Of a DNA stretch of 64,000 bases, positions 20,410 through 56,914 are shown one piece after another. Both the position numbers and the translations under genes were made by a program. The stretch's first letter is position 1. The number at the start of each line of letters is the position of its first letter. The notes beneath the pieces were generated by a model. The model searched no databases, had not been told where the DNA came from, and was given only the letters and a program-made list of their open reading frames with translations. The DNA is from a virus: positions 1 through 64,000 of IMG/VR virus record IMGVR_UViG_3300044641_004408, one strand, 5' to 3'.

Positions 20410-20982
20410 TTAATTATTTTTATATTTCCAAGTGAAGTTTTTATGTGTTTTCCTAGTACCCCTGCAACAATCGCCTATTTTGCTATAGCTTTTAAATCCA
20501 AGTTCTACTGTAGCATCTACTGCGCTATCCCATTCTCTTATATATTCGCCTTGTCTTGTCATTTGTATAATTGGCTTGGAGTGCCAAATTTTATTTTTTA
20601 ATTTTGATTCTGCACTAGGGACATTACCAATTTTAGCTAATGACATTTTTTTTCTACCTTCTTCTGTTATTGCCCATCCTCTAACACCATCCCCACCATC
20701 TGTCATATTGCATAAATGTCCAGTGTTTTTATTTGACCTACCATGCAAACCAATAAGATATGATTCCCAAGAGTTAGCCTCATCCCAAGTAAGATTAGTT
20801 AGTAGTATTTCTACTTCAATCATAGTTTGGTTATAGATTCTTTGCCAATGCTTATTACGCTTATGAACTTGATAGGCTCTTTTAAAATTGCTTAAAGAAC
20901 CGATACCAATATAAAATACATTGCCATTGTCCAATCTTTTATGAACATAAACATAAGCATTATTTACTGGATCATATCTCAT
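20410..20982 (-). CDS. GIY-YIG homing endonuclease inside the fiber cluster
   Basis: The 190-residue protein has VYVHK and FYIGIG (about 23-28) as the GIY and YIG motifs. NMTDGGDGVRG follows at about 92-102, as in the protein at 8030, to which it is clearly related. Its C-terminal half has a NUMOD-like SLAKIGNVPSAESKL segment and a DNA-binding DSAVDATVELGF region. It lies between fiber A and fiber B and inside a unit bounded by direct repeats (18779 and 20983), as expected of a mobile intergenic endonuclease that carries neighbouring fiber DNA with it. Confidence 0.9.
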   Translation of the reverse strand: MRYDPVNNAYVYVHKRLDNGNVFYIGIGSLSNFKRAYQVHKRNKHWQRIYNQTMIEVEILLTNLTWDEANSWESYLIGLHGRSNKNTGHLCNMTDGGDGVRGWAITEEGRKKMSLAKIGNVPSAESKLKNKIWHSKPIIQMTRQGEYIREWDSAVDATVELGFKSYSKIGDCCRGTRKTHKNFTWKYKNN

Positions 20983-26043: not shown

Positions 26044-26586
26044 TTAAACGTATTTAAATGTTGTTAAATTTTTGTTTTGACCATTCAACTTAGCTTTTAA
26101 TGTAGTTGGTTTTAAACCAAGTACATCGGCTGCCTCATTGATACCAATGTAATAAATGCCAGTTGATTCATCTAATATTAATTTAGATGTCTTTTCCCTT
26201 GCTTTTCTGCCATTGGCGGCTCCATTTTTTTTACCTCCATTACTTAATGCTTTAAGCATTTTATCATTTACAACTCTTAAACCAGTATCGCAAGCATGTT
26301 TTTGATTCTCTGATGGCGTACACCATTCAAGATTAAAAAGCATATTATTTGCCTTATCCCCGTCTATATGATTAACTTGAGCTTTATTTTCAGGGTTTGG
26401 GATATACGTTTCTGCAACTAATCTATGTATAGTTTGCCACTTACACCCTTTTTCGTTAAATAACTGAACACGAGGATATCCTGCTGTAGTCTTGTTTGTT
26501 TGACTCAAAAATCTCATTGAAAACAATGAAAAGATTTTACCGTCAACGGTAACTAAGTAATTTGGATATTCTTTAATTTGGCGCAT
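26044..26586 (-). CDS. HNH homing endonuclease with NUMOD4 and NUMOD1-like domains
   Basis: Residues 1-45 (IKEYPNYLVTVDGKIFSL...) are a NUMOD4 domain. They are followed by the HNH core: IHRLVAETYIP, QVNHIDGDKANN and NLEWCTPSENQKHA (about 50-110), with conserved His, Asn and His. The C-terminal part (GIYYIGINEAADVLGLKPTTLKAKL) is a NUMOD1-like helix-turn-helix. At 180 residues this is a full-length free-standing homing endonuclease, inserted between the repeat fiber and a further structural gene. It is the second homing endonuclease in the fiber region. Confidence 0.9.
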   Translation of the reverse strand: MRQIKEYPNYLVTVDGKIFSLFSMRFLSQTNKTTAGYPRVQLFNEKGCKWQTIHRLVAETYIPNPENKAQVNHIDGDKANNMLFNLEWCTPSENQKHACDTGLRVVNDKMLKALSNGGKKNGAANGRKAREKTSKLILDESTGIYYIGINEAADVLGLKPTTLKAKLNGQNKNLTTFKYV

Positions 26587-26589
26587 ATG

Positions 26590-27141
26590 TTATTTTACTA
26601 ATATTCTTACAAATTCATTTAAGTAGAATGGAACATCTGAAGATACAGTTAGAGTACCTGTAGATGAATTCCAAGATACTTGATTTCCAGATGGAACACC
26701 TGATGTGATAATTGTACCAACATCAATACCACCTCTTGATGCATAAAGTAAAGTTGTATTTATTGCTTCAGAGAATGTGATACTTGCTGTTCCTTCTACT
26801 GCAAACTTAGAGTACTCGCGTACACCTTGTCCACCACCGCCCGGTACTACGTTACCACCAGAGCTACCATTAGCTAATATTTCTTGTGCTATACCAATTT
26901 TAGCTCCACATAAAGCATAAACATAATTTGCTACGCCTTGTAATGTTTGTGGATTATCACCTGTACCATTTTCTAAATTTTGATCATTACCATATTCTAA
27001 TGCTTTCCATTCCATATAAAGCTGAACTGGTTTACGAGGATCTATAGTTCCATTAAAAAAAACCCTTTCCTTCGGGATACTACTATTCCAAAGGTATTCA
27101 GATATTTTCGCTAAAGATATTACTTCTGCTGGTGTTGCCAT
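26590..27141 (-). CDS. Structural or fiber-associated protein, 183 aa
   Basis: A 183-residue protein with a helical first half (EVISLAKISEYLWNSS...) and a beta, Gly/Ser-rich second half (SGGNVVPGGGGQGV, then FAVEGTASITFSEAINTT). The pattern suggests an adaptor binding the fiber to the virion by its helical N terminus. It is coupled to the 172-residue gene upstream (their ends meet at 27141). Not recognised as a named family. Confidence 0.55.
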   Translation of the reverse strand: MATPAEVISLAKISEYLWNSSIPKERVFFNGTIDPRKPVQLYMEWKALEYGNDQNLENGTGDNPQTLQGVANYVYALCGAKIGIAQEILANGSSGGNVVPGGGGQGVREYSKFAVEGTASITFSEAINTTLLYASRGGIDVGTIITSGVPSGNQVSWNSSTGTLTVSSDVPFYLNEFVRILVK

Positions 27142-27659
27142 TAGAAAAAGTATGATGAGTTAGTAGATATAAATGTTGCTCTATTCAATGCAGATTGTGC
27201 GCTGAATATATCTGAAGCAAATGAAATTGCTTGATATGCGCTATCCAATTCTACTCTTAAAATCATTTTTGTTTGATACCAATTCGTACTAGCAGTCAAA
27301 TTAGAATTTGCCACCTGACTTTCAGTTAGACCATAATAAAATGTTTCATTATATGCAGTAAATGCGTATGATGTAGTTTTATTTGCAACAAGAACATTAC
27401 TTGATGTTAACCATTGAACAGTTATACTTAATGCAGAATCTTGTGTTAAAACATTTAAACTGATACTTACGTCTGCTAAAGCCCAATCAATATAATCTGT
27501 AGTTGTTCCAGTAGGAACTAAATAAGTACCATTTGATTGTAATAAATATACTCTACGCTTCGCAATGGTTACATCTGAACCAGTTGAAGTATCTGTAAGA
27601 GTTATTATATTAGGCGTGCCACTATTTTGGCTTGCTGTGAAATTTGGAGAAATTGGCAT
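27141..27659 (-). CDS. Structural protein, 172 aa, head of the fiber operon
   Basis: The frame is open to 27677, but the promoter box at 27675-27682 overlaps that start. The ATG at 27659 (MPISPNFTASQ) is preferred and gives 172 residues. The protein is beta-rich (ITLTDTSTGSDVTIAKRRVYLLQSNG), with an immunoglobulin- or fibronectin-like strand rhythm. Possibly a fiber connector or small adhesin. Confidence 0.55.
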   Translation of the reverse strand: MPISPNFTASQNSGTPNIITLTDTSTGSDVTIAKRRVYLLQSNGTYLVPTGTTTDYIDWALADVSISLNVLTQDSALSITVQWLTSSNVLVANKTTSYAFTAYNETFYYGLTESQVANSNLTASTNWYQTKMILRVELDSAYQAISFASDIFSAQSALNRATFISTNSSYFF

Positions 27660-27674
27660 TACTAAAAATTTACC

Positions 27675-27682
27675 CAAATATA
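27675..27682 (-). promoter_or_regulatory. -7 box TATATTTG for the fiber operon
   Basis: Minus-strand TATATTTG, 15 bases before the preferred ATG at 27659. It supports that start over the longer open frame and would drive leftward expression of the fiber and homing endonuclease genes. Confidence 0.55.
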
Positions 27683-30800: not shown

Positions 30801-30982
30801 GGATCATAGCTTTCCATATTAAGGTATTGCCTTCTCATTTCATTAGCGGCCTTATTAATACCTCTAACTTCTGATTCTATACCAGCTAATTCAGCAGAAA
30901 ATGCCTCTAAATTATTGGCTAAATACTCTTTAAGCTGTGCTTCGTTGTACTCAACTCCATCTATAACGTAAATGCAACCCAT
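27875..30982 (-). CDS. Large internal-virion-type protein, 1035 aa
   Basis: The first 480 residues are mostly charged coiled coil (long KLEKEVEDLREQVNNAAAK-like runs). Around residues 560-800 the protein turns to segments such as FSNEFRLQIFLRGAERLL, a NNITGRGK block, and the hydrophobic stretches LVWAPGLMSSSLNI and GIAMGVLVMAAMAL. These resemble conserved regions in very large phage polyvalent or ejected proteins. Such proteins are packaged with the DNA and enter the host. The hydrophobic parts could line a channel across the membrane. No enzymatic motif is evident. Confidence 0.6.
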   Translation of the reverse strand: MGCIYVIDGVEYNEAQLKEYLANNLEAFSAELAGIESEVRGINKAANEMRRQYLNMESYDPDVITNFEANQKAEEWLKDGGDVNELLDKLENGGPVSLFEQEVIKILNMELDAKIAENPTDELLAKQRRLTIINDIIGTDAARVLQARKGMPAPMTTISDYYIDKMNRNGVEVLTEAQKKEAKADFEKIAKLEKEVEDLREQVNNAAAKELTQREINETKKTRKSSTKKIDYVAERNKVIGDIRQKLKDIRQGRSGINAVPLPGVQEFIEIAPDVAKLARLYVQEGVENLGDLVTKIHDLLRTELAGLTKQDVQDMIAGKYNEPRPTKSELQYKVESLRKEAKLLNEIEAVKAGKPKTEKEQIRKNQRIADLNKQLIEVKRKAGYYDKANQPVKDKDQAKLESSIKNVETQIAEFERRIKEGDYSEKRKRINILDDTELRKKNPELFNKFIAAREKLDNLKFEYTQKMAREEMASKRGLQRAVAETGKFAQEGFNTVKALKAGIDNSVVFIQNGIAVLNPMNIKATAKGLKAQLDVFASEANFRARLIQIYENKPLLDMITRSGLDLIDPKGFRQSIENEQFGGKNWLDKIKFTVSKKGEPYSVQNKEGQWENFPGEITTKTYKASDILSPFERIFAAFSNEFRLQIFLRGAERLLNQGKTLDNNIEDFKSLASYANNITGRGKIHNLLKSSDPLISALVWAPGLMSSSLNIMGLGDAVNLGKDKGYYRAMTKDVRKYAMRETSYGIAMGVLVMAAMALDPDKEVDSDPTSVTFGQVKDAVNGWAYNIFGRFTPYVRYISMMTLRDKVIDGKPVKFDAKAETYKFARGKAAPFTGVAADLMFSQNFQGKQYNLDDKGQIASDLFEPLFIKELREQMKIDGTEAILTRGIPAFMGIKVVNEKMYDKRDLESLLKDTQVSSAMDKNLILNYKVDKIGKPITKEEFNEFVKKRDAIIGKYMTDIYQKGVPVLEGENTILKPIAEVSKEDLMKAISKIKTLATKKVKKDLFGEKPEPEEYLQEDLKFTWDEILGLEEDQ

Positions 30983-30992
30983 TATTTATATA

Positions 30993-31493
30993 TTATTGTT
31001 TTGACAAATATCTATCAAATTCTAAAATAGCTGCTTCATTTGTACCACATCTATTGTAACGACTAATTAAATCACCATAAGTTCCCACCGCTTTTAATTG
31101 AATGGTAACAAATTGCTGTAAGAATATACCTACTGCACTATCTTCTTCATCGGCTTCTTGGTAGAATTTTTTGTATTGGTTATATACATCTAATTCCATA
31201 TCATAAGCTACTTGCAAAGCTGTTGCGATTGAGTCAATTTCATCTTCAATTGCATCTATTTTAGGCACATCTGCTACATCGCCCATATCATTGATAAAAT
31301 CAACAAATATTTGGTAATGGGTAAGTTCTTCTGCACTTTCTGCTAGAAAGTACTTTTGGCCTCCAAAAAAGCCTAATCTCTGTAATTGGTTAGCGATATG
31401 CTTCCAAAGGTTAGACTGGTACAATTCGGCGTATATAGCCTTTTGCAAGCCCTTTTTCATACTAGGGCTTAATAAATTTTTTACGTTGGGCAT
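30993..31493 (-). CDS. Ferritin-like di-iron protein
   Basis: A 166-residue four-helix protein with the ferritin pattern: Glu23 in AIYAELYQSNLW, Glu56 and His59 in ESAEELTHYQ, Glu100 in AYDMELDVY, and Gln132 in FVTIQLKA. These correspond in spacing to the ferroxidase centre of bacterial ferritins. One further acidic ligand of that last helix is not obvious. Bacterial ferritin shells store iron in the cytoplasm. Here the gene lies between two giant internal-virion-type genes, overlapping the upstream one by 13 bases, which is unusual. It may protect phage or host from iron or peroxide, or be a virion part. Confidence 0.82.
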   Translation of the reverse strand: MPNVKNLLSPSMKKGLQKAIYAELYQSNLWKHIANQLQRLGFFGGQKYFLAESAEELTHYQIFVDFINDMGDVADVPKIDAIEDEIDSIATALQVAYDMELDVYNQYKKFYQEADEEDSAVGIFLQQFVTIQLKAVGTYGDLISRYNRCGTNEAAILEFDRYLSKQ

Positions 31494-34400
31494 TTTATTT
31501 GAATTTTTAATTTTTCTACTATGTTATCAAAGTTACGATCTACAAATTCTTTTTTAGCATTTTCTTTAGCTTTTTTACTAGCCTTGCCTACTACTTCTTT
31601 GTATTCTTTTGCTAGTTCTGTTTCTGTTGTTTTTTCAGCTTTCTTTGCTGGCTTAGCTGTAGCACTATCGCCTTCTTCTGCAAGTCGGTCAGCTTCTTCT
31701 GAAGCTTTGTAGTACTCTGCTTCAAGTTGTTCTCTTGTTTCATATTCTTGTTTTATTAGTTCTTGTTCAAAAGCTTCAGCTTTAGCAATCTCTGCGTCTA
31801 TTATTTTTTCCGCAACTGTGCTATTCAAGTCAATTCCGGTTAACTCCTTAAACTTTTCAGCAGCTTCCCTTGCAACTCTGCTTTCCCCCATCCTAACAGC
31901 TTGAGAAGCTCCACTAGGATATGCAATCATAAAGTTTACAATGTCTTGTGGGGTTATCTCTTTACCATAATAATCGGACATTTCTTTTGCTCTAACGTCA
32001 ATTGGCGTACCTTCTTTATTAAAATAGGTTAAAGCCATTCCTCCTGTTATAAGATTCTCATCTCCAAATCTTTCAAAACCCTTTTGTGTTAATTTTCCTA
32101 AGCCATAATCAGCAATTAGTTGCTCTTCAGTTGTTAACTTACTTTCCTTTGGTTCAGCTACATATGTTTCTAGCACTTCTAAAGGATTCTTACTATTCTC
32201 TATAATAAATCTTTTACCTTCTTCATCACTTAATCCAGATGGCATTTCAGAAACTACTTCAGTAAAACGCTCTCCTTTATTAAAATCAAATTTGTCAATA
32301 TACTCGTCTAATGCTTTTTTTCTAGTAGAAGGCGACACTTCCTTGCCAGTCTTAGCATCTCTTACTATTAATTGACCTTTCTCGTATGCAACCTTTTGCC
32401 TACCTGACTTAGTTGTAAATGATTCTTTCTTTTCTTCTATAGGTGCTAATTCTGTTGGTTTAACTTCTACTTTTACTTCAGTTGGTTTAACTTCGGCTAT
32501 TGGATTATTATAAATTTCAATTAGAGATTTAGGTAATTCATTTAATGATATTTTCTTTTCTTCACCTTTTACATTTCTATAGATTGCATATCCTAATGTA
32601 TTTGTATTATTTTTTCTGCTAAATCTAATCCACCACATTTCATCAGCATCCCCTACCTTTCTCTTACCAAAAATATTATAGAATTTACCACTTTTTGCAG
32701 TGCTTGTATAGCTATCTAACCCTTCAACTTCAATGTTATCTTCAGTAACTTTAGTTGATTTAACTTCTGTTTGTGCTTTATTTGCTTCTTTTGAAGGAAC
32801 TTCAGTTGGTTTAACTTCTTTACTTGGATTATATTTTAATACGGGAACTTCTACTTTGATAAAATCACCGTCTATTTTAACTTTAAAATTAAGATTATTA
32901 TTTTTTAAATATTTTTCTAATCGCGCTAACGCTTCATCTTTATTTTCAAATTTAGCTCCATTCCATTTGCCTTCAGTATTATATTTTAAATCTTTAAATA
33001 AATTTGTTTTATCTATTGGAGTTATTTCTACTTCTTTTGTTTCACCTGTTTTTATATATTTATCATTTTTAATAAAATTATTCCATACTCTTAATCCATC
33101 AACAGATATAGATTTATCTTCTATTAATTCATGATTTGCAGGTAGAAATTTTTCTATTCTTTTAAAAGCATTTTTAATATCTAAAGGCTTATCATTTTTT
33201 GCATTAGCAGTTAAACTAAAACGATTTGTATTGTTTTTTATTTCTTTAAATGAAATTATACCTTTATTAGGCAATGTATAAAAAATATTTTTCTCTCCTT
33301 TATCATCGCCTAAATAAGTACTGACAGAAGAATTATCATCAAATTTTTCTGATTTTTGTAATTTATTAAAATATACATCTTCAGTTGGTTTAACTTCTTC
33401 GGTTACTTCAACTTCAGTAGGCTTAACTTCTGCTTTTAATTGCTCTAATTTTTCTGCTAACATTTTAGATGCTTCTTCCGATTTACCTTGCGCTGTCAGG
33501 TCTGCAAACTTCTGACTTTCTTCAGGTGTCATAGCATCAATCGCATCATATTCGTCAATTGCTTTTACAACTTTCTTTGTGCCTACAGGCTTTCCTTGTA
33601 ATGCTTCAAATTCAGCTTGACTTACTTCTTCTCCATCTACTATATATTTTTTACCACCAAATTCTTTTGAAGGCTTCTTTGCAATGTTATATACTTCTGC
33701 ATCTATTTTTTTAATCCTTTCTTCGTTGGTTTTTATTTCTTGATCTATACCTGCATGATAAGCTACATCTGTTGTTTGTTTTTGCTGTAGTAGATTTTGA
33801 TTAGCTTGGTTTATGTCATTTCTTTCAACCAATAATTCAATTGATTTTGCTCTATTTTCGCCCGTTACTGTTTCAGGTATTTTATCTGCAACTTGTGCTG
33901 CTTTTTCTGTAAAAATAATACCTTCTTGGTGCTGTTCAGGAGTAATAACATTGTTAGCTAAATCTCTATTTAAATTTATAAAAGAATCTTCTACTCCATT
34001 CTGAACCCCTTGTGTTGCAATTTGAGTAGCTAATGTTTTATTATTAGATGATGTTTTTGACCTCTCCATAGTAACTCCAGTAGCAACTTCTGTTACACCT
34101 CCCGGAACTTCTGCAATACCCTCTATAATTATGTCATCCCAATTTACTTTTTTACCTGATGCAATTTGAGCTGCTAATTCACCACCACTCCCCCCAGTTA
34201 TTTGTAACCCCGTTTCGCCAAGTCCAGCCAATAGTTTTTTGCTTAAACTTTTACCTACTGCACCAGCTGCAAACTTACCTGCAAAACCTGCTGTTAGTGC
34301 ATCAAAAACTAAAATAGGTACACCATATTTAGCTGCTGTACTCCTAATTTTTGCCATCTTTTTTTCATCAGAAAAAGCATTAATTAAACTTTCTTTATTT

Positions 34401-35263: not shown

Positions 35264-36577
35264 TTATTTTTTCCAAGCAATACCTGATTTGGATTTTGTA
35301 TTAGGTTTTCCAAAACTAGGTTGACGTCCCTTACCCGGTTCTGTATTATATTTTAATTGATAATTCTCCATACTTTGTCTTGTAATAGTTCCAAAATTTT
35401 TGTTAATCAATTTTTCTGGCTTGCCATTTACAAACTCAATGTTAAAGTTTTTTATTTCTCTAGGTGCTTTTATAATATCAAACAATTCAGCAGGTAGTTT
35501 TTCTTTTGGAAGATTAACAACACCGCTTATAGGGTTCCCGTTAACATCAACATAAGTACCATTTATAATCTTATTACCACTTTTTAAATCTTGATCGGGT
35601 ATTACATCCATTATATTACCCTCTACAACTGCTACATTACCCGCAGCATTAGCTTTGGCTCTGGCATCCTTTCTGCCTTCATAATACAATTTAGAAAAAT
35701 CAGCTTTCCCTGTAGATACTGGACCAGTTGGCTTTTTAATTAAAGCATAACCAGCAACAAAATCTTCTGGGGTTTCTATTTTAGGTATTACAACCTTCTT
35801 TGTTTGAGGATCTGTGTATTGAAATGCTTCACCGAACTCTTTCTGTGCAGCAGCAAATACATTAGCATCCTTCATTAAATTATTAAAATTCTTTGCAGTT
35901 GACGGTTTTGTCTTATATTCATTAATTGCATTTATTGCAACTGTTTCCGCTAATTCTGGAGTTATATAAGATGTTTTTGTATATTGAACCTCACCAGTTG
36001 GTAATTTTGTTGGTACTTCTTTTGTAGGCAATGTTAACCCACCCCACACATTTTTAGTAAAATCTACATCGTCATATTTCTTATTAAAATCAAATTTAAA
36101 TAAATCTACTGGCTTGTAACCTGCGTAAATTGGCTTTTGACTATCTTGAACCGCTTCCATGAATCCATCGGGTATTTCTAATCCCTGTGATGCCATTCGG
36201 CTGTAAGTATTTTGTGCCACTTTATTTTCAGCATATGCTTGTTTTGACATAGATATGTCAGATAAAATATCTTTAAAACCAGCCAAATATTGAGATTGAG
36301 CTTCTGCGCCATATTTAGAAGGATTCAATATGCGATCTCTGTTTTGAAAGTAAAATTGCTTATTGTCATTATACTTCTTTAATACAATATCTTGATCTTG
36401 AGATCGCATACCAGCTGGATTAATTGATTTCTCATAATCCATAAAATATCTATCTAAAGCTTCTCTTTTGGCTTGGTTTCTTTGCTCAAGTTGAATAGCT
36501 AAATTAACTGGCTTAGATGTATCTATTTTTACACCTTTAAAGTATGGGTTTATTCCTAATAATCCTGTAGCTGCCAT
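35264..36577 (-). CDS. Structural or internal protein, 437 aa
   Basis: A 437-residue soluble protein with a helical, basic N-terminal half (LEQRNQAKREALDRYF...) and a beta-containing second half (VEGNIMDVIPDQDL, INGTYVDVNG). It ends in a Ser/Gly/Lys-rich tail. It lies 13 bases from the ejection-type protein at 36591. Unassigned; an internal virion role is inferred from the neighbourhood. Confidence 0.5.
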   Translation of the reverse strand: MAATGLLGINPYFKGVKIDTSKPVNLAIQLEQRNQAKREALDRYFMDYEKSINPAGMRSQDQDIVLKKYNDNKQFYFQNRDRILNPSKYGAEAQSQYLAGFKDILSDISMSKQAYAENKVAQNTYSRMASQGLEIPDGFMEAVQDSQKPIYAGYKPVDLFKFDFNKKYDDVDFTKNVWGGLTLPTKEVPTKLPTGEVQYTKTSYITPELAETVAINAINEYKTKPSTAKNFNNLMKDANVFAAAQKEFGEAFQYTDPQTKKVVIPKIETPEDFVAGYALIKKPTGPVSTGKADFSKLYYEGRKDARAKANAAGNVAVVEGNIMDVIPDQDLKSGNKIINGTYVDVNGNPISGVVNLPKEKLPAELFDIIKAPREIKNFNIEFVNGKPEKLINKNFGTITRQSMENYQLKYNTEPGKGRQPSFGKPNTKSKSGIAWKK

Positions 36578-37394: not shown

Positions 37395-37888
37395 AATTCC
37401 AAATTTTTAATGTTATTTAAAATTTCTCTATATTCTTTGCCTACATCTGAACCAGTAATCTGATTAATATAAGGCTCTAATATTTTATCTTCTATTGATT
37501 CAACTATCTTCTCTATTTCCTCTTCACTTAAATCATTGTATTCAGATTTCATTCCGTCTATTCTGTGAAACGTAGTCCAAATACAATCTTCTAATATATA
37601 TAAAACTCTTCTTGTTCCCGGCTTTGTTATTCCAGTATAAGGAGCTGTTATTTCGTACCACTCTTGCGCATCAATAGATACAGCAGCTTTTCCATAAGAA
37701 ACAACATACGGATGTTCTGTTTTATGTATCTTACTTGTCCATAAAGTTCCAGCGGGCATAAAGATTTCTCTTATATACATTCCTTCTGTAAATTTATGAA
37801 CCAACGGAGCGTCTATTAATTCATCAGGGAATTGCATCATTGCAGCTTCAATATTATCTACAACCTCGTCATTTTCCCTAATTATCAT
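37391..37888 (-). CDS. Cupin-like fold protein of the virion cluster
   Basis: The middle of this 165-residue protein (about 40-110) reads MYIREIFMPAGTLWTSKIHKTEHPYVVSYGKAAV. It has the cupin two-motif rhythm with possible metal ligands His (IHKTEHP) and a second strand near CIWTTFHRIDG. Such proteins occur beside structural genes in many phages without a known role. The end is acidic helical. It overlaps the next gene at 37888 by one base. Confidence 0.6.
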   Translation of the reverse strand: MIIRENDEVVDNIEAAMMQFPDELIDAPLVHKFTEGMYIREIFMPAGTLWTSKIHKTEHPYVVSYGKAAVSIDAQEWYEITAPYTGITKPGTRRVLYILEDCIWTTFHRIDGMKSEYNDLSEEEIEKIVESIEDKILEPYINQITGSDVGKEYREILNNIKNLEL

Positions 37889-38436
37889 TATCTATTATTC
37901 AATGGTGAATTAATATACTTAGTCGTTGCGCTGTTCAAATATACGAAAGAATTTGCACTTGCTTTCTCAAATTTTATAACCATATAATTGCCTTTTAAAC
38001 TATCCCCCTCTATTAGCCCTCCCGGACTGCTAGAATCCCTTAAAAACGATGCTTGATACTCAGACTCCAAAGATACAAAATCAGACTCTAAAAGCTGACT
38101 TGACTGCTTTACGCTTGTACTTCCTCCTGTTTCCATTTGCGTATATATTACCGGGCAAGCCCATGTGGTATTGCCTGTTTCCATTACTGAAATCCATGTC
38201 TTTTTATCCAATGAATTTGCGTTAAATACGTTGGTTATTGAGGCATTATATTGAGTGCCATAGAAATTACAGAAAGGAGCTGTCCCATGCTCCCAAATTT
38301 GACCATTTTTAAAGGTAAACATGGTAACATTAACAACACCCATAAATTCAGGGAAATACGAATAAAAAGCCTCAAATGCATTAGCATTTTCATCAAATGA
38401 TATTGTATAAGGGTCTTGGTGAAATATTAATGCCAT
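37888..38436 (-). CDS. Structural protein, 182 aa
   Basis: An aromatic, beta-rich 182-residue protein (YSYFPEFMGVVNVTMFTFKNGQIWEHG) placed directly after the nozzle gene. Similar small proteins lie next to tail hub genes in Bacteroidota podoviruses, where they form part of the tail tip. Position and composition support a tail-tip or virion protein; no named family recognised. Confidence 0.55.
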   Translation of the reverse strand: MALIFHQDPYTISFDENANAFEAFYSYFPEFMGVVNVTMFTFKNGQIWEHGTAPFCNFYGTQYNASITNVFNANSLDKKTWISVMETGNTTWACPVIYTQMETGGSTSVKQSSQLLESDFVSLESEYQASFLRDSSSPGGLIEGDSLKGNYMVIKFEKASANSFVYLNSATTKYINSPLNNR

Positions 38437-45314: not shown

Positions 45315-45587
45315 TTAATTATTTGATGCGTAAGCTAATATATCGTTCTGACGAATTAAGAAAACAAGTTCATTATCTAAAATGATTGGCTCCCCTGCTC
45401 CTTTGATATGGAAAACAATGTCATCTTTTTTAGCTTCCATTTTAATCTTAGCCGTACCTTTTCCTACAGAAATAACTTTTGCCTTGCAATTTCTTTCTCT
45501 GTATCCTTCAGGCAATAATAAACCGCCTTCGGTAACTTCTTCTGGTGCAAATGGCTTTACTAAAACAAAATCTCTAATTGGTTTCAT
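45315..45587 (-). CDS. groES: GroES co-chaperonin
   Basis: The 90-residue protein is a clear Cpn10: KPIRDFVLVKPFAPEEVTEGGLLLPEG contains the beta strand and mobile-loop region (GGLLLPE), then KVISVGKGTAKIK and VFLIRQNDILAYA, the usual C-terminal strand. Length equals that of single-domain GroES. It would work with host GroEL; some phages bring a cap of their own so that a large capsid protein fits the chamber (T4 gp31 is the known precedent). Its place in the head/tail module, 2 bases from the ring gene, supports a morphogenesis role. Confidence 0.92.
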   Translation of the reverse strand: MKPIRDFVLVKPFAPEEVTEGGLLLPEGYRERNCKAKVISVGKGTAKIKMEAKKDDIVFHIKGAGEPIILDNELVFLIRQNDILAYASNN

Positions 45588-45594
45588 ATATTAT

Positions 45595-46221
45595 TTAGTT
45601 GTTGTTATCTACTCCGTCATTACTTGTATCTATTGGTCTTGATCTTTCAAATGCTAATTGAGCTTTGATATATTCAATCATCATTGGAACATAGTCATCT
45701 GGTATAATTAATGTAGATTGTAAATTAGTAGAATCACCTCCACTAATCATTCTTACATTTGCAGTATATTGAGATAACAATATAGATGATTTTACATATA
45801 TATTTTTACCTTCAATCCAATATAATAATTTATTCTGAATTGGTCTAAGACTATCTATATAACCAACTTGATTTATGCTTAATGGTATAGCTGTTTGAGA
45901 AATCTTGCCTTCACCTACAAATTGCAATGTTGCAACACCTTCATTTTTTCCTAATGCAACAGGTATTACTGGCAATGAAATTGAATAAGTTGTAACGTTT
46001 TCATTTAAAACTGGCAACGCTTTAAAAGTAGTGTAAAATGAATTATTTACATAAGCCACACCATCTATTTGAATACTATCTGTATAATTCTTTCTAGCGG
46101 CTAATGCAATAGCATCGTTAAGCCACTGATTAACTTGATTGTATGTAATACTTGAATCATCGGATGGCTGTCCGTTATATATTTGTCTTAATATTCTTTC
46201 TATAAATGCGTATCTAGTCAT
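45595..46221 (-). CDS. Head-tail ring protein, 208 aa
   Basis: A 208-residue protein with a helical N terminus (YAFIERILRQIYNGQPSDDSSITYNQVNQWLNDAI), typical of head-completion or adaptor proteins, and beta strands after. It overlaps the next upstream gene by one base. It belongs to the ring set with the genes at 44542 and 46221; precise equivalent unknown. Confidence 0.6.
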   Translation of the reverse strand: MTRYAFIERILRQIYNGQPSDDSSITYNQVNQWLNDAIALAARKNYTDSIQIDGVAYVNNSFYTTFKALPVLNENVTTYSISLPVIPVALGKNEGVATLQFVGEGKISQTAIPLSINQVGYIDSLRPIQNKLLYWIEGKNIYVKSSILLSQYTANVRMISGGDSTNLQSTLIIPDDYVPMMIEYIKAQLAFERSRPIDTSNDGVDNNN

Positions 46222-46886
46222 TATTGCCCAGTTTGTGTTACTTGATTAGCATATTGCTGTACTTGTCCGTCTTGTAAATTTAAGCCAATTAATTTTAATG
46301 CCCTAGCTATTATTTCTAATAAATCTACATTATCCCAAACAGGCTGAACACTTGTGCCAGAACTATAAACAGGTCTGCCATTAACAGTGGTATAAGCCCA
46401 AACAATTTCAGGTGCATCTTTCACATAAGTTAAAATTGCACTTCCAAGTGTTACAGGATAAAATTGAAATCCAGTAGGCTCTAATAAATAAATAGGATTA
46501 GTTGCAATAGGATCAATTTGGCTATTATAAAAAGAATACAAAGCATCTTGCTGAACGTATCTTACTCTATTAAATGATGATGTTATTACCGTATCCGTTT
46601 GAACATAATCAGCTGGATAAGGTGATTGTCCAGTTGTGCTATTAATAGTTAATGTAGTTTCTACAAGTAATGGTGTTAATCTTTGTCTAATATTTTGATT
46701 TTGGCTATAATTTATTCTAGCCTGTGGTCTGCCATATTGATATTGCTGAAACTCTCCCAACAAGTAATCTTGATATGAAACTTGCGCTTGGTTTATAGTC
46801 AAATTAAATTCAGATGGAGTCAAATAGCCATTTTGCGCCTTATTAACTGCAAACTGACAAATACGATACATATCATTAACATTCAT
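46221..46886 (-). CDS. Head-tail ring/adaptor protein, 221 aa
   Basis: The start (MNVNDMYRICQFAVNKAQNGYLTPSEFNLTINQAQVSYQDYLLG) is a helical adaptor pattern shared by many Bacteroidota phages. A beta middle and a helical end follow. A terminator and a TATATTTG box lie just upstream, so this gene heads the tail operon. Role as first adaptor inferred from gene order. Confidence 0.62.
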   Translation of the reverse strand: MNVNDMYRICQFAVNKAQNGYLTPSEFNLTINQAQVSYQDYLLGEFQQYQYGRPQARINYSQNQNIRQRLTPLLVETTLTINSTTGQSPYPADYVQTDTVITSSFNRVRYVQQDALYSFYNSQIDPIATNPIYLLEPTGFQFYPVTLGSAILTYVKDAPEIVWAYTTVNGRPVYSSGTSVQPVWDNVDLLEIIARALKLIGLNLQDGQVQQYANQVTQTGQ

Positions 46887-51363: not shown

Positions 51364-53754
51364 TTATTGTTGTTGCATTTGTTGTTCCATCATCATTTGT
51401 TCTTCTTCAGAAAGCTGTTGCTCACCCATTTGCTCCATTTGCATTTGCTCTTGCTGTTGCGCTTGTTGCTCTAAAGCCATTTGCTGTTCTTCATTCTGCA
51501 CCTCAATTGGCACATTTACATTTTGCAAAGTATCAGCAACTAATTGTTGTAATTCTGCTGGTACAGGAATATTTGCTTTTGCAAGATCAAAAACACCTTG
51601 TAGTATAATTTCTTTTTCTCTAGCTAAAGCCCTTTTACCATCAATAATTGTATCCGCTTGCATTTTTGCTTGAATACTAGCTTGTTGAGCTTCTGCGTTT
51701 TGTTGTGAATTATTTTGAGCCTTTTCTTGCTCTGTTTTTATATATCTCTTTTGTGCTTGTCTAAAGTACAATTCACCTAAATCCACATTTTCTTTAGCTA
51801 TTCTCATTACCTTAAATGGATCTAGATACATAACCAATTGAGGATTTGATGCCATAGCATTGTTCATCATTATTTGCAAATTAGCAATTTCTTGAGCTTG
51901 CGGCATCATTTTAACTGTAGCAACAAAATTTCTATCTTTAACATCTTCTTCCTTCAAAATATCCCTATATTTTTTAGCTCCGTAAGTAACACTTTTATTT
52001 AATAAACAAGCTATTTTTTTGCATGTTTCTTCCATTACATAGATATACGCATCATACATATATTCTGTAGCATTATTTGCTAAAGCTCTTGAAGCTTCAA
52101 TATTTGAAGCGGCAACTCTTGGTTGAGCAGCTTGATTCATTAGATTAGGATCTTCTCCTAACTCATCTTTCAATACTTGATAATGGAATTGATATAATTG
52201 AATTAACGCTTGCAATTGAGGTGCAAAACCAGTATTTGCCAATTCGGTAATTGGAACTGGAATTCTATTTCCTTCAGCATCTCTACCGCGATAATAAAGT
52301 TTACCTGTTTGTTCCCAAATCTTTTGTACCTCTAATGGCTTTACAGAATCCCCTAAACCTAAATCTAACTCTTGTAACGCATCTACATCAATTGAAGCAC
52401 CCGCTGGTACCATTTTAGCTACCATTTGTTGTATCTTCAATCTAGCTAAAATCATTTGCTCAATAGGCTCTTCTATTTTTTCAGGTACAGCCACATTACG
52501 CATATCGTAAGGGTCATACATATAAAAACTATAAGAAAACTCTGCGTTGCCTAATTCTTTTGGATCTTGTGGGCGAATCATATTTTTTTTGATACCCCAC
52601 TTAATCATTGTTTGAGTAACTGGACAATATACACCTTCGTATATATTCCATTTTTTCTCTTCTAAATATTCTTGATTTTCATCTATTTTTTCAGGCTTGC
52701 CCTTTCTAATAATCGTGCTGCCATTCTTTTTTGTCTTGGTAACGGTATATCCATCAGAATCTAATGTTCTAATTTCAAATTGTACTAAATCAATATTCCA
52801 TTCATCATAAGGTCTTAACCAAGAAACGTTCCAATCTTGCATCCACTTAATCTTATCTGTTAATTGGTATTCTTTTGATGATTGAGCTAATCTAAAAATA
52901 TCTTCTTCGGTTAAAATACCGCCAGCAGCAATACTATATCTTGCTCTTATTTCACTAACTTTCATAGACAAAATATGTCCTCTATAAGTGGTATCTCTAA
53001 AATCAGGGAAATCAGAATAAGAATAAATTGCATTTTCAGGTCTAATCCATTGAACATGAACTTCCCCTTCTTCATCCATAAAAGTATAAGTACATACTAA
53101 TCCTACTTCCGCAGAATCATGTAATAATCTTTGTTTTAAAACATCATTCCATCCATTAGCCTCTAATACGTTATTACATCCAATACTATATTGTATTTCT
53201 TCTGGCAAATGATTAAATTCACTAATCCATCTATCTAATTCATCTTTATCTTCTGCAATAAATTGATCTTGAGGGATAATTGGAATACCAGACTCTTGTT
53301 GTATTTGCGCTAAGACTTCTTTATTTTGATAAATAAATTCAGCTTCATCTGCTGCATTCTTTTTAAGCATTGCAGATGCGCTATCTGTAGCAGTAACTGT
53401 AACCTTTTCATTTCTACTCATCCATGAGCCTACTAATCTTGCAACAATTGTATTACCAATAATAATTGATTTCCAGTTAATATTTACAAAGTTAGCTTTA
53501 CTATTCATCTCCAAACGATCCATAAACACACTCATGTCTATTTTACCGTTTGCGATTTGTCTATTTTTTCTAAATCTATTATTTCTTAACCAAAAATATG
53601 TTTGGTTACCGTAAATTGTAGAATAGATGCTCTGTGCAACATTTTTACCATATGCATAATCTTTTTTAGATGCTACATCTGTAGTAATTTGAAACTTTTT
53701 TAAGGCTTCTCCATTGCTATTTGCTGCTGATATGAATAACGGACTATCTGCCAA
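51364..53754 (-). CDS. Portal protein
   Basis: A 796-residue protein just downstream of the large terminase, the standard portal position. It has a helical clip/stem-like centre (EIRARYSIAAGGILTEED, KIKWMQDWNVSW), an extended wing region and a helical crown (VASRALANNATEYMYDAYIYVMEETCKK). The last 45 residues are a Gln/Glu/Met-rich tail (QQMALEQQAQQQEQMQ). Length is close to portals of crAss-like and related phages. The portal forms the ring through which DNA enters and leaves the head. A promoter box lies 18 bases upstream of its start. Confidence 0.85.
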   Translation of the reverse strand: MADSPLFISAANSNGEALKKFQITTDVASKKDYAYGKNVAQSIYSTIYGNQTYFWLRNNRFRKNRQIANGKIDMSVFMDRLEMNSKANFVNINWKSIIIGNTIVARLVGSWMSRNEKVTVTATDSASAMLKKNAADEAEFIYQNKEVLAQIQQESGIPIIPQDQFIAEDKDELDRWISEFNHLPEEIQYSIGCNNVLEANGWNDVLKQRLLHDSAEVGLVCTYTFMDEEGEVHVQWIRPENAIYSYSDFPDFRDTTYRGHILSMKVSEIRARYSIAAGGILTEEDIFRLAQSSKEYQLTDKIKWMQDWNVSWLRPYDEWNIDLVQFEIRTLDSDGYTVTKTKKNGSTIIRKGKPEKIDENQEYLEEKKWNIYEGVYCPVTQTMIKWGIKKNMIRPQDPKELGNAEFSYSFYMYDPYDMRNVAVPEKIEEPIEQMILARLKIQQMVAKMVPAGASIDVDALQELDLGLGDSVKPLEVQKIWEQTGKLYYRGRDAEGNRIPVPITELANTGFAPQLQALIQLYQFHYQVLKDELGEDPNLMNQAAQPRVAASNIEASRALANNATEYMYDAYIYVMEETCKKIACLLNKSVTYGAKKYRDILKEEDVKDRNFVATVKMMPQAQEIANLQIMMNNAMASNPQLVMYLDPFKVMRIAKENVDLGELYFRQAQKRYIKTEQEKAQNNSQQNAEAQQASIQAKMQADTIIDGKRALAREKEIILQGVFDLAKANIPVPAELQQLVADTLQNVNVPIEVQNEEQQMALEQQAQQQEQMQMEQMGEQQLSEEEQMMMEQQMQQQ

Positions 53755-53811: not shown

Positions 53812-55860
53812 TTAATTGAACTCTGGCTTATAGCTTCTAACCAATGGTTCCCGTTTAATTTGTTTTTGAACTGGTTCCATAAGACACACTATTAACATTA
53901 AAAATGATACTGTTTGGTCAAAATCAGTTCTATTGTTTGGATCAAACTTTTTGGCATCTTCCAATAAGTTTTCAAAATCTATAGAATCAATATGAGATTC
54001 AAAATACATAATTCCAACATCTGTCTGCTTAGTTAAGCTAAACGGAGTCGTTGGGAAACCTTTATATCTTTCTGCTGTTTCTCTTTTAGAAGGATCAATT
54101 GTTGAAAGTGGGTAAGAACCTAAATATCCGACACGCCCTCTATCTCTAAAATATGATAAATAATCATCACTATTATGCTCATACCAAGCTTGATAACCAT
54201 AAAATTCAGCCGCTAAAAGAACTTGCTCGTGCAATGTTTCTTTAATTTGAGGTCTGCCATACAAATGACCTATTGCCTTACCGGTGGTTTCTGGATTTAA
54301 TAAATCATATCTTCTACCAATCCAAGCTGACGCTTTTGAACCATATTTACCACCTTGACTATTACTGTATCCGTCAATTGCTATTGCGCCATCAGATACC
54401 CTTCCCGGTTTTCTAGTTTTAACATCAAATGTATGTTTATTCTCTTCGCCTTTTGGTGGGAATTGAGTTATAACCCAATGAAAATCTTCTTCTTTATCAT
54501 GAATATTTCTCCACCTTACTGTTTGGTCAATATCTCGGTAAAATATAACATGCCTTTTTAATACAGGATTTTCTTTCAAATACTGCTCCCTTGCTCCTAT
54601 ATTCATTACATTAAAAATACACTTATCTGAGTCTGTACTAAACGCTTCATCAATTGTCAATGGTTCTTTTCTAACACGAGCAGACAATGCTCTTGGGTTG
54701 TTTTTAACCGTTTCTCTATCTGCTAGAATTTGGTCTAAAGTCTTATTTTCATCAGGGAAACCAAAGTCGTCAAAGTTTCTAGTTCGCTTTGCAGACATAA
54801 AAAATCTATAAAGACCGCTTGAAGTCGTCCCATTATCTTGCCTTTTGTCTTGATTACTTTCTTCCCATAATAATTTAAACGCATCTTGAACACCATCTTT
54901 TTCTGTAGTTAATTTTTCTACCGTAGTAGTATATAAAGCCTTTCCGATAATCTTACCTTCATCATCTAGCAAACAATAACGCACAACCTCGTGTCTATCA
55001 TAAACATTAACCTCTGTAGTTTTACCACACTCGTCTGCCACATATCTATGTAATTTTTGTCCATCATAAGCTACTGTATCTGCCGATTGATGGTCAATAA
55101 TTGATCCTAATTCATCTTTGTCAACACTATCTTCTGCTTTCTTACCTCTTACGTTTGTCTTTTGGAATCTCATCTCTGTTTTAGGATTAACACCCAAAGA
55201 CATATCATATTCTGGTCTAAAAAACTTTGGCAATCTTCTGAAAGGATTAACAACTGTCTTAGCAAAGAATTTTTTGGCATCCGATCCTGTTTTAGACTGA
55301 ATACCGCCGTTTGTCATCTTAGTCCTAGTAATGTATTCAGAAACAAATAGCCCAGCTACAAATGATTTACCAAAACGTCTTTTAGTTACTTCAAGCATCC
55401 CCATACATAATGGATCTTGAATACAATAGTCCATAAAATAGAACTTTTCCAAATCAGGAATACGAAACTTAGGATATCCAATATCAATAGGCCACCATTG
55501 TAAATATAAATAATGCAATCCCGTCAAATATGTGGGAGTACCATTGTTCATATACCAAAATCCATTTAACCTTTTATCCCACTCTTGTTTCTTATATTCT
55601 TCTAGTCTTTCATCATAAAATTCAACCTCGTCATCTTTTTTCTTTTTATCAAATTCATCCCACTTCTTCATTGTATCTTGATACCAATCTGGCATAGGTA
55701 TTCTTTTCCAAAATTGCTCTGATTCAATTTCAGACCTTTTATATATACCCCTAAATTCTACTTGTTTTGTAATTATATTGTATACATAACCTTCAGGAGG
55801 CAAATTACACTTTAGCCCTTGAATGTCTATAACACTCCCGCCTTCAATTTTTTCGTACAT
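53812..55860 (-). CDS. terL: Terminase large subunit
   Basis: The ATPase part has an atypical Walker A, KRRFGKS at 160-166 (Lys165), and Walker B in HRYVADECGK (Asp276, Glu277). The C-terminal nuclease of RNase H type begins with AIAIDGYS (Asp496), with further acidic residues (ILIDENL-like region near 640, FDQTVSF near 652). The 682-residue length and motif I order fit terminases of Bacteroidota podoviruses. It packages DNA into the head through the portal and cuts concatemers. Gene order (candidate small terminase upstream, portal downstream) supports it. Confidence 0.95.
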   Translation of the reverse strand: MYEKIEGGSVIDIQGLKCNLPPEGYVYNIITKQVEFRGIYKRSEIESEQFWKRIPMPDWYQDTMKKWDEFDKKKKDDEVEFYDERLEEYKKQEWDKRLNGFWYMNNGTPTYLTGLHYLYLQWWPIDIGYPKFRIPDLEKFYFMDYCIQDPLCMGMLEVTKRRFGKSFVAGLFVSEYITRTKMTNGGIQSKTGSDAKKFFAKTVVNPFRRLPKFFRPEYDMSLGVNPKTEMRFQKTNVRGKKAEDSVDKDELGSIIDHQSADTVAYDGQKLHRYVADECGKTTEVNVYDRHEVVRYCLLDDEGKIIGKALYTTTVEKLTTEKDGVQDAFKLLWEESNQDKRQDNGTTSSGLYRFFMSAKRTRNFDDFGFPDENKTLDQILADRETVKNNPRALSARVRKEPLTIDEAFSTDSDKCIFNVMNIGAREQYLKENPVLKRHVIFYRDIDQTVRWRNIHDKEEDFHWVITQFPPKGEENKHTFDVKTRKPGRVSDGAIAIDGYSNSQGGKYGSKASAWIGRRYDLLNPETTGKAIGHLYGRPQIKETLHEQVLLAAEFYGYQAWYEHNSDDYLSYFRDRGRVGYLGSYPLSTIDPSKRETAERYKGFPTTPFSLTKQTDVGIMYFESHIDSIDFENLLEDAKKFDPNNRTDFDQTVSFLMLIVCLMEPVQKQIKREPLVRSYKPEFN

Positions 55861-55862
55861 AA

Positions 55863-56249
55863 TTAATATCTTTTACCAGCTAATTCGCCTACCGCATCGG
55901 CCATGTTTTCTGGAGAAAATGGCTTTCTATTAACCTGAACTATTTCTTTTTTATCGTTTGTTTCTTGATTAATACCGGCTAATACTTCTAAAGCTTTAAT
56001 TGAAGCTGAAATTGTTCCAGCATCTACCCATATCTTTTGTAGTCTTTCAAATGTCTTAATTTTAGGATCGTCAATATCAATTGCAGTAAGACTTGTTTTA
56101 TTTAACAATTCAGCCATTTCATTAGCTTTTCTATTAAGTGCATGATATAGTTTACCTATCCCATCTTGTTGATAATAAGCATTTTTACCTTCTAAATAAG
56201 CTATTTGTTTTTCTAAATCCTTAATCTTATTTTCTAATTCTGCTGACAT
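55863..56249 (-). CDS. Candidate small terminase subunit, 128 aa
   Basis: The first 35 residues are a coiled-coil helix (LENKIKDLEKQIAYLEGKNAYY), then a helical middle and a short charged end. It overlaps neither neighbour significantly and sits two bases upstream of the large subunit gene, the usual place of the small subunit. It lacks a clear helix-turn-helix, so the call rests on location and coiled-coil composition. Confidence 0.5.
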   Translation of the reverse strand: MSAELENKIKDLEKQIAYLEGKNAYYQQDGIGKLYHALNRKANEMAELLNKTSLTAIDIDDPKIKTFERLQKIWVDAGTISASIKALEVLAGINQETNDKKEIVQVNRKPFSPENMADAVGELAGKRY

Positions 56250-56914
56250 TAATTTAATTTTTTAGCATCTGAAATATTATAACCAATCAATAAATCCCCC
56301 TTAACTACTTTTTCAGTTAATTCATGCTCAACCGAAATTACTTCGTTTCTATCGTTGCCTTCTGGATAATATCTTAATCTTATAATCTTTCCTTCTGTTC
56401 CATCATCATTTTGATATATAATTTCATAATCACTTGATATAACAGTACCTACAACATTACCAGATAATTCACCGCTAGTAACATAAATCTTATTTTTAAC
56501 TAAAGTAGGTTCAACCCCTTGCAAAAAACCAGTATATGGTTCAAAAATCCTTAGTCCAGTAATAAAATTATTTAAAGGGTTCCATGTGGAACCTTTTTCA
56601 CTTCTCCACATAAAACATTCTTCAATAGGTATTGAAAAATATTGCATATCTGAAGATGCTTCAGCTGTTGGTTTTTGATAATTAAAAATTTTATAAGTAT
56701 CATGAGTAGCATTATGATGAATTAAAATTTCAGAACCAGCAGGTATATCCGTAGCATCAACTACTTCAGCATTAACAGGCTTAACATAACGCATGTTAAA
56801 ATTATCATATACTCTTTCTAATTTTATCTTTGTGCCATCCTTAAATGTATGGCTGTTTTTACTTTCTAAATCAACCTTAATGATTACTCTATTACTTGGA
56901 GCTTTCAATTTCAT
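56249..56914 (-). CDS. GroES-like beta protein beside the terminase, 221 aa
   Basis: The first half (NRVIIKVDLESKNSHTF...KPVNAEVVDATDIPAGSEILIHHN) follows the order of a GroES fold: N-terminal RVIIK strand, variable loop in the place of the mobile loop, then the PAG-EILIHHN turn and strand. IPIEECFMW resembles the last strand. The second half may be another domain. This could be a diverged co-chaperonin or an unrelated virion protein with a similar fold. It heads the packaging operon. Confidence 0.4.
   Translation of the reverse strand: MKLKAPSNRVIIKVDLESKNSHTFKDGTKIKLERVYDNFNMRYVKPVNAEVVDATDIPAGSEILIHHNATHDTYKIFNYQKPTAEASSDMQYFSIPIEECFMWRSEKGSTWNPLNNFITGLRIFEPYTGFLQGVEPTLVKNKIYVTSGELSGNVVGTVISSDYEIIYQNDDGTEGKIIRLRYYPEGNDRNEVISVEHELTEKVVKGDLLIGYNISDAKKLN

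Follow-up and report, generated by a model that had tools for sequence, protein, structure and literature searches.

The window analyzed here, a stretch of 64,000 nucleotides, is part of a 69,236-base IMG/VR virus record, and it contains a ferritin-like gene inside a long minus-strand block of virion genes (Table 1). The terminase and portal proteins are nearest to those of flavobacterial podovirus-like phages (Calle, Elemovirus and phi19:3/Gundel; 22–29% identity), and this kinship points to a probable host among the Bacteroidota. Pervagoviridae (Calle), Elemovirus and Pachyviridae (phi19:3 and Gundel) share with the window the terminase, the portal and the virion gene order, in which a giant gene ends the cluster; a search of the phage collection found no ferritin in these isolates. 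A Bacteroidota-type promoter (TTG-17/23-TAnnTTTG) was not found before the ferritin gene. Two genes of the window show weak similarity to a GroES-like co-chaperonin that Calle and phi19:3 encode, and minus-strand blocks flank two plus-strand genes, of which the second weakly matches a glycosyltransferase.

Table 1 Features of the window (positions counted from its first nucleotide)
Feature	Position	Strand	Remarks
HNH/homing endonuclease genes	26044–26586, 20410–20982	−	Inside the virion and tail-fibre block
Two genes of 453 and 679 aa	15387–18784	+	Flanked by minus-strand blocks
178-aa gene	27141–27677	−	Conserved downstream in groups A and B; TTG start as listed, relatives' start about 6 codons in
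C-half of giant gene, 1035 aa	27875–30982	−	Residues 36–1008 match 1062–2066 of an unsplit 2088-aa relative
C-half N-terminal head motif	30917–30982	−	MGCIYVIDGVEYNEAQLKEYLA; only beside ferritin; conserved at the peptide level
Ferritin gene, 166 aa, ATG start	30993–31493	−	Ligands E23, E55/E56, H59, E100, Q132 intact (profile, PDB, model, alignment)
N-half of giant virion-cluster gene, 1257 aa	31481–35254	−	Its last 13 bases overlap the start of the ferritin gene
N-half C-terminal tail motif	31484–31549	−	About NFDxIxxxLKIxxKCPT; only beside ferritin
437-aa gene	35264–36577	−	Conserved upstream of the giant gene, whether ferritin is present or absent
182-aa protein	37888–38436	−	Weak, below-cut-off match to the crAss muzzle C-terminal domain
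Virion structural protein, 2027 aa	38455–44538	−	phrog_14478
GroES-like genes (weak similarity)	45315–45587, 56249–56914	−	
Virion structural protein	46221–46886	−	phrog_14543
Probable major capsid protein, 469 aa	47954–49363	−	Weak match to phi19:3 virion protein; gene order as in Calle
Portal protein	51364–53754	−	phrog_6547
Large terminase	53812–55860	−	phrog_6681

The initial annotation, made from the sequence alone, had called the 166-aa product a ferritin-like protein without giving its strand; Pfam, PDB matches and an AlphaFold model now agree on this identity. The protein matches PF00210 (Ferritin) with an E-value of 3.6e-15 and 56.6 bits against a cut-off of 24.5, and solved ferritins are its top PDB matches (best Archaeoglobus fulgidus, E 5.7e-12), so that a chance match is excluded. 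Its distant relatives likewise score above the profile cut-off, and it also matches PHROG_16594, a family of unknown function. The AlphaFold2 model, built with 31 phage sequences as input, has a mean pLDDT of 94.7, and Foldseek places it close to the ferritins of Vibrio cholerae, Escherichia coli, Thermotoga maritima and A. fulgidus (TM about 0.92; 0.92 to E. coli FtnA, 1eum). Helices are predicted at residues 10–40, 43–69, 89–117 and 119–148, with a short E helix at 153–164; the protein thus has five predicted helices, a four-helix bundle plus the E helix, rather than the four described earlier. The E helix is compatible with a 24-subunit iron-storing shell. Glu23, Glu56, His59, Glu100 and Gln132 are indeed found at the residues claimed and align with E17, E50, H53, E94 and Q127 of E. 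coli FtnA.

The fold, the five helices with a short E helix and the ferroxidase ligands are those of the known non-heme ferritins (E. coli FtnA, A. fulgidus and T. maritima; PF00210), whereas the window ferritin is only 22–26% identical to them and is encoded in a phage virion block. Unlike FtnA, the phage ferritins have lost the third iron site C (E49, E126, E129 and E130 in FtnA): in the alignment of 54 sequences, E126 is replaced by Ile in 54/54 and E130 by Ala or Ser, and the E49 equivalent is the only site C residue kept. The equivalent of FtnA Tyr24 is mostly Trp (46/54; Tyr in 8/54), and the window ferritin falls far below the cut-off of the NCBIfam FtnA equivalog NF007638 (33 versus 178 bits). 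Other members of the superfamily were considered and rejected. Bacterioferritin does not fit, as the window ferritin (E56-L57-T58-H59) has no Met two residues before the site His, the position of the heme-binding Met52 of E. coli Bfr. Dps has a dimer-interface site and no E helix, whereas the window ferritin has intrasubunit Ftn-type ligands and an E helix. As for rubrerythrin, the protein stops at the E helix without the C-terminal rubredoxin Cys4 domain, and the PF02915 match is weaker. Judged by its sequence and predicted structure, the window gene is a genuine phage-encoded non-heme ferritin with an intact two-iron ferroxidase site.

Scans of IMG/VR yielded 73 loci with ferritins 41–98% identical to that of the window, from which 54 distinct phage sequences, the window's included, were aligned. 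A loss of the iron ligands among relatives, which the initial annotation had named as one half of what would refute its reading, was not seen, the five ferroxidase ligands being invariant in 54/54. Close pairs gave dN/dS values of 0.02–0.11, which point to strong purifying selection on the ferritin. The phage ferritins group as a single clade, well apart from the two cellular sequences in the tree, which are too few as outgroups for dating or sourcing it. No cellular donor emerged: two scans of 84,980 cellular genomes by family patterns returned no relative, and the plasmid matches were only 23–26% identical. The sole ferritin match in the phage collection, MT838721.1 ("Bacteriophage sp.", L009), proved to be a bacterial contig; its two ferritin-like genes have MarC, fructose-bisphosphate aldolase, phosphoglycerate mutase and Hsp20 as neighbours, and it also encodes a sigma factor. 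The earlier remark that phages rarely carry ferritin therefore stands for sequenced isolates, but not for the present uncultivated group. The patchy presence of the gene would suit a host ferritin acquired by chance and functionless in the phage; however, the low dN/dS, the invariant ligands, the single deep phage-only clade and the lack of a family-pattern match in the cellular genomes make this extremely improbable.

Across the collected phages, the ferritin occurs in six contexts, all co-oriented and beside virion or giant genes. In group A, the window's own group (terminase 81–100% identical), it lies between two giant genes; in L040 and L050 it is 3′ of an unsplit giant; in group B (terminase about 30% identical) it directly follows the portal gene; in L179 it stands immediately 3′ of a GroES-like gene and before the phrog_14543 virion gene; and in L172, a contig without matching terminase, it follows a MuF-like minor head gene. 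The most diverged ferritins, L180 (48%) and L181 (41%), are again found between giant genes, here in distant phages. The location inside the virion gene cluster was thus borne out in the window and in relatives. A search at the same place in related phages, as proposed in the initial annotation, gave a mixed outcome: the gene recurs, but at several places of the virion cluster besides that one, and close relatives may lack it. The six virion-side contexts are suggestive but not significant alone, because the virion block makes up most of the genome. One 59.9-kb contig (3300032323_002596; L087/L088) carries the terminase twice in opposite orientation and looks like a palindromic assembly artefact.

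The clearest result, absent from the initial annotation, concerns the two giant neighbours. The ferritin does lie between the 1257-aa and 1035-aa genes, and the 13-base overlap with the former (31481–31493) is exact, as had been claimed. Comparison with relatives shows that the two genes are one gene split at the ferritin, since relatives without ferritin have it as one ORF. Residues 946–1193 of the window N-half correspond to 777–1024 of an unsplit 2088-aa protein, colinear with the match of the C-half (Table 1), and the break point is a linker of about 40 residues. In another pair, L200 lacks ferritin and keeps its giant whole, as a 2670-aa protein; the last 918 residues of that protein and the C-half of L207 are 61% identical. 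For a sampling independent of ferritin, the 178-aa downstream gene was used as anchor and gave 37 loci, near-duplicate contigs (L193/L194 and L211/L212) included, 25 with ferritin and 12 without. The order N-half, ferritin, C-half was found in 22 of the 25 ferritin-bearing loci, and in the remaining three (L193, L194 and L218) the giant is a single ORF of 2058–2088 aa with the ferritin behind it. Of the 12 loci without ferritin, ten have the giant as a single ORF, 1921 aa or longer; of the other two, L208 is truncated and L217 is the outgroup (contig 3300043413_000021; terminase fragments 29–45% identical). "Ferritin absent, giant unsplit" was rejected as a universal rule, since L217 has a separate C-half homologue (1307 aa) without ferritin; in some lineages the two-piece state may predate the ferritin. 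No known profile explained either half of the giant, and the AlphaFold model of the 1035-aa C-half was poor (pLDDT 55.6).

Short conserved peptides mark the break. A C-terminal tail, roughly NFDxIxxxLxxxKIxxxC, is common to N-halves that otherwise differ greatly, and the C-halves share a starting peptide, or head, roughly M..C.Y.I.G.EYTE.ELKDYL. When profiles were built with L180 and L181 left out, the best outside matches of the tail were L180 and L181 and that of the head was L180, and there was no other convincing match to either among the ORFs of all loci collected. Unsplit giants have neither motif, nor do groups B, C and D, and the head peptide had no match in the phage collection. Codon changes in the head are mostly synonymous, which argues for selection on the peptide itself. 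Tail codons show few changes of any kind, synonymous ones included, and part of the tail conservation may reflect a translation-start constraint of the ferritin. The terminal Cys of the tail was rejected as a functional motif, because it is dictated by the frame in which the N-half runs over the ferritin ATG. The tight linkage and the motifs at the split could also be read as a structural hub without iron chemistry, in which the ferritin bundle joins the two halves of the giant; that reading is very unlikely, given that the ferroxidase ligands are invariant in 54/54 and that the ferritin occurs also where no gene is split.

Several observations speak for exchange of the gene among these phages. 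Mapped on the terminase tree, ferritin presence requires 8 changes, of which well supported branches force 5 or more, and this amounts to repeated module exchange. The ferritin tree does not sort by site: 10 site changes are needed where 6 would be the minimum (starred branches alone force fewer), so that the gene has moved between sites or between phages; such counts on trees do not give the direction, whether insertion or loss. In group B, 33 of the 34 evaluable portal loci have the ferritin. L237 is an empty site, with the portal joined to the next gene and the ferritin cleanly missing, and its portal gene is 93–96% identical in DNA to those of ferritin-bearing relatives. Combined with long group-A contigs without ferritin, this empty site indicates that the gene is dispensable; as close relatives do without it, it is not a core part of morphogenesis. 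The virion block accepts optional genes readily, because a homologue of the window's HNH genes occurs at other sites of the block in group B (before the portal or between head genes). Taken from these gene comparisons, the ferritin behaves as a mobile, optional and selected module that recombines into virion gene blocks, and its commonest site in group A is the place where the giant gene is broken, with both halves left as separate proteins.

Considering its position, the ferritin is probably made together with the late virion proteins; it would be translated late, coupled to the giant protein via the start overlap, would assemble as an oligomer, and would oxidize Fe2+ with O2 or H2O2 and hold the ferric iron. 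With less certainty, it would belong to the particle, where internal cargo alongside both giant halves is its likeliest role, and packaged ferritin would keep free iron and peroxide off the packaged DNA or the newly infected cell. Association with the particle is favoured because portal, head and giant genes are its constant neighbours and the head peptide is tied to it, and because the giants in the same cluster position of Calle and phi19:3 are annotated as structural proteins. It is further favoured by crAss001, in which the large proteins encoded just after the muzzle, a comparable place, are packaged cargo (PMC10172136); the 182-aa protein of the window, with its weak muzzle match, stands just upstream of the giants and resembles this order of muzzle, then cargo. 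On the other hand, the case is weakened because the gene is dispensable, because groups B, C and D lack both motifs, because the C-half model is too poor to reveal a cargo fold, because late non-packaged genes share such operons, HNH genes being present in the same block, and because a ferritin shell (the 24-mer is about 12 nm) would be too large for the portal unless unfolded. A selected phage ferritin, expressed late and associated with the particle, is the explanation that we consider best, and we give it, with packaging as the favoured reading, an even chance of being right.

A late role within the infected cell comes close to packaging in likelihood. The ferritin could be made with the virion proteins because the cell needs it late in infection, stay there unpackaged until lysis, and either protect phage DNA and assembly against Fenton chemistry or store iron for phage enzymes. 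The intact ferroxidase site under selection and the optional, patchy, auxiliary-gene-like distribution agree with this, and gut-phage Dps-like ferritins and catalases have been interpreted in the same way (PMC8008677). Intracellular control leaves unexplained, however, why the gene keeps company with virion genes and not with other blocks, and why the head peptide occurs only beside it.

An iron role at the tail tip, which the initial annotation had raised, finds no support in the present analysis. In such a Ferrojan-horse scheme, iron-loaded ferritin at the tail tip would let the particle use host iron receptors, and in Vi01-like phages gp217, a predicted ferritin encoded near a tail gene, was detected by virion mass spectrometry (PMC10892097). 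The same study found no TonB or FeoB dependence, and gp217 was named a ferritin by Phyre2 at 22% identity (PMC10892097). Moreover, the ferritins of the present phages adjoin portal and minor-head genes too, not tail-tip genes, and the 166-aa protein has no secretion or tail-attachment part, which makes the scheme highly improbable.

Returning to the packaging reading, a more specific form would be that these phages package active ferritin as virion cargo, and that a conserved cassette (the N-half end peptide, the ferritin and the C-half start peptide) breaks the giant internal protein so that the ferritin loads with it; this form is put forward tentatively, as less likely than not.

The ferritin itself, phage Dps-like proteins and catalases, and scattered viral ferritins are already known. 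Dps-like proteins and Mn-catalases are described from the gut "Gratiaviridae" and "Flandersviridae", and Dps from Lactobacillus phages (PMC8008677). These are ferritin-superfamily proteins too, and several of the gut phages infect Bacteroides, but they belong to other families, and the portion of that account drawn on here describes no virion gene that is interrupted or split by them (PMC8008677). A fold search of BFVD shows that viral databases contain scattered ferritins, among them A0A8D9C9X5, a putative non-heme ferritin of an uncultured marine phage with the ferritin fold (TM 0.90) at 22% identity. Three further BFVD entries, A0A6J7WIS1, A0A6J7XDU5 and A0A6J7WPK9, annotated as "prohead protease" of uncultured Caudovirales phages, have weak fold matches to the ferritin/Dps bundle (TM 0.57–0.67) and are possible ferritin-like domains fused to head proteins. 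Among the open-access papers searched, we came across none that describes a ferritin turning up at several sites among virion genes, or one that divides a giant virion gene.

Until now, most phage ferritin-superfamily proteins have been described as products of auxiliary stress genes. The present gene encodes a true ferroxidase-type ferritin and recurs throughout a large uncultivated group of aquatic phages, probably of Bacteroidota, always among particle genes, and giant virion genes can exist as one piece or two and be exchanged as modules. This is a hint that the particle, or the way it is assembled, may include iron handling; if the ferritin is indeed packaged as cargo, the particle itself would take part in controlling iron and peroxide. 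Relatives with and without ferritin are close enough for direct comparison, which makes the long-standing question of iron in phage particles testable.
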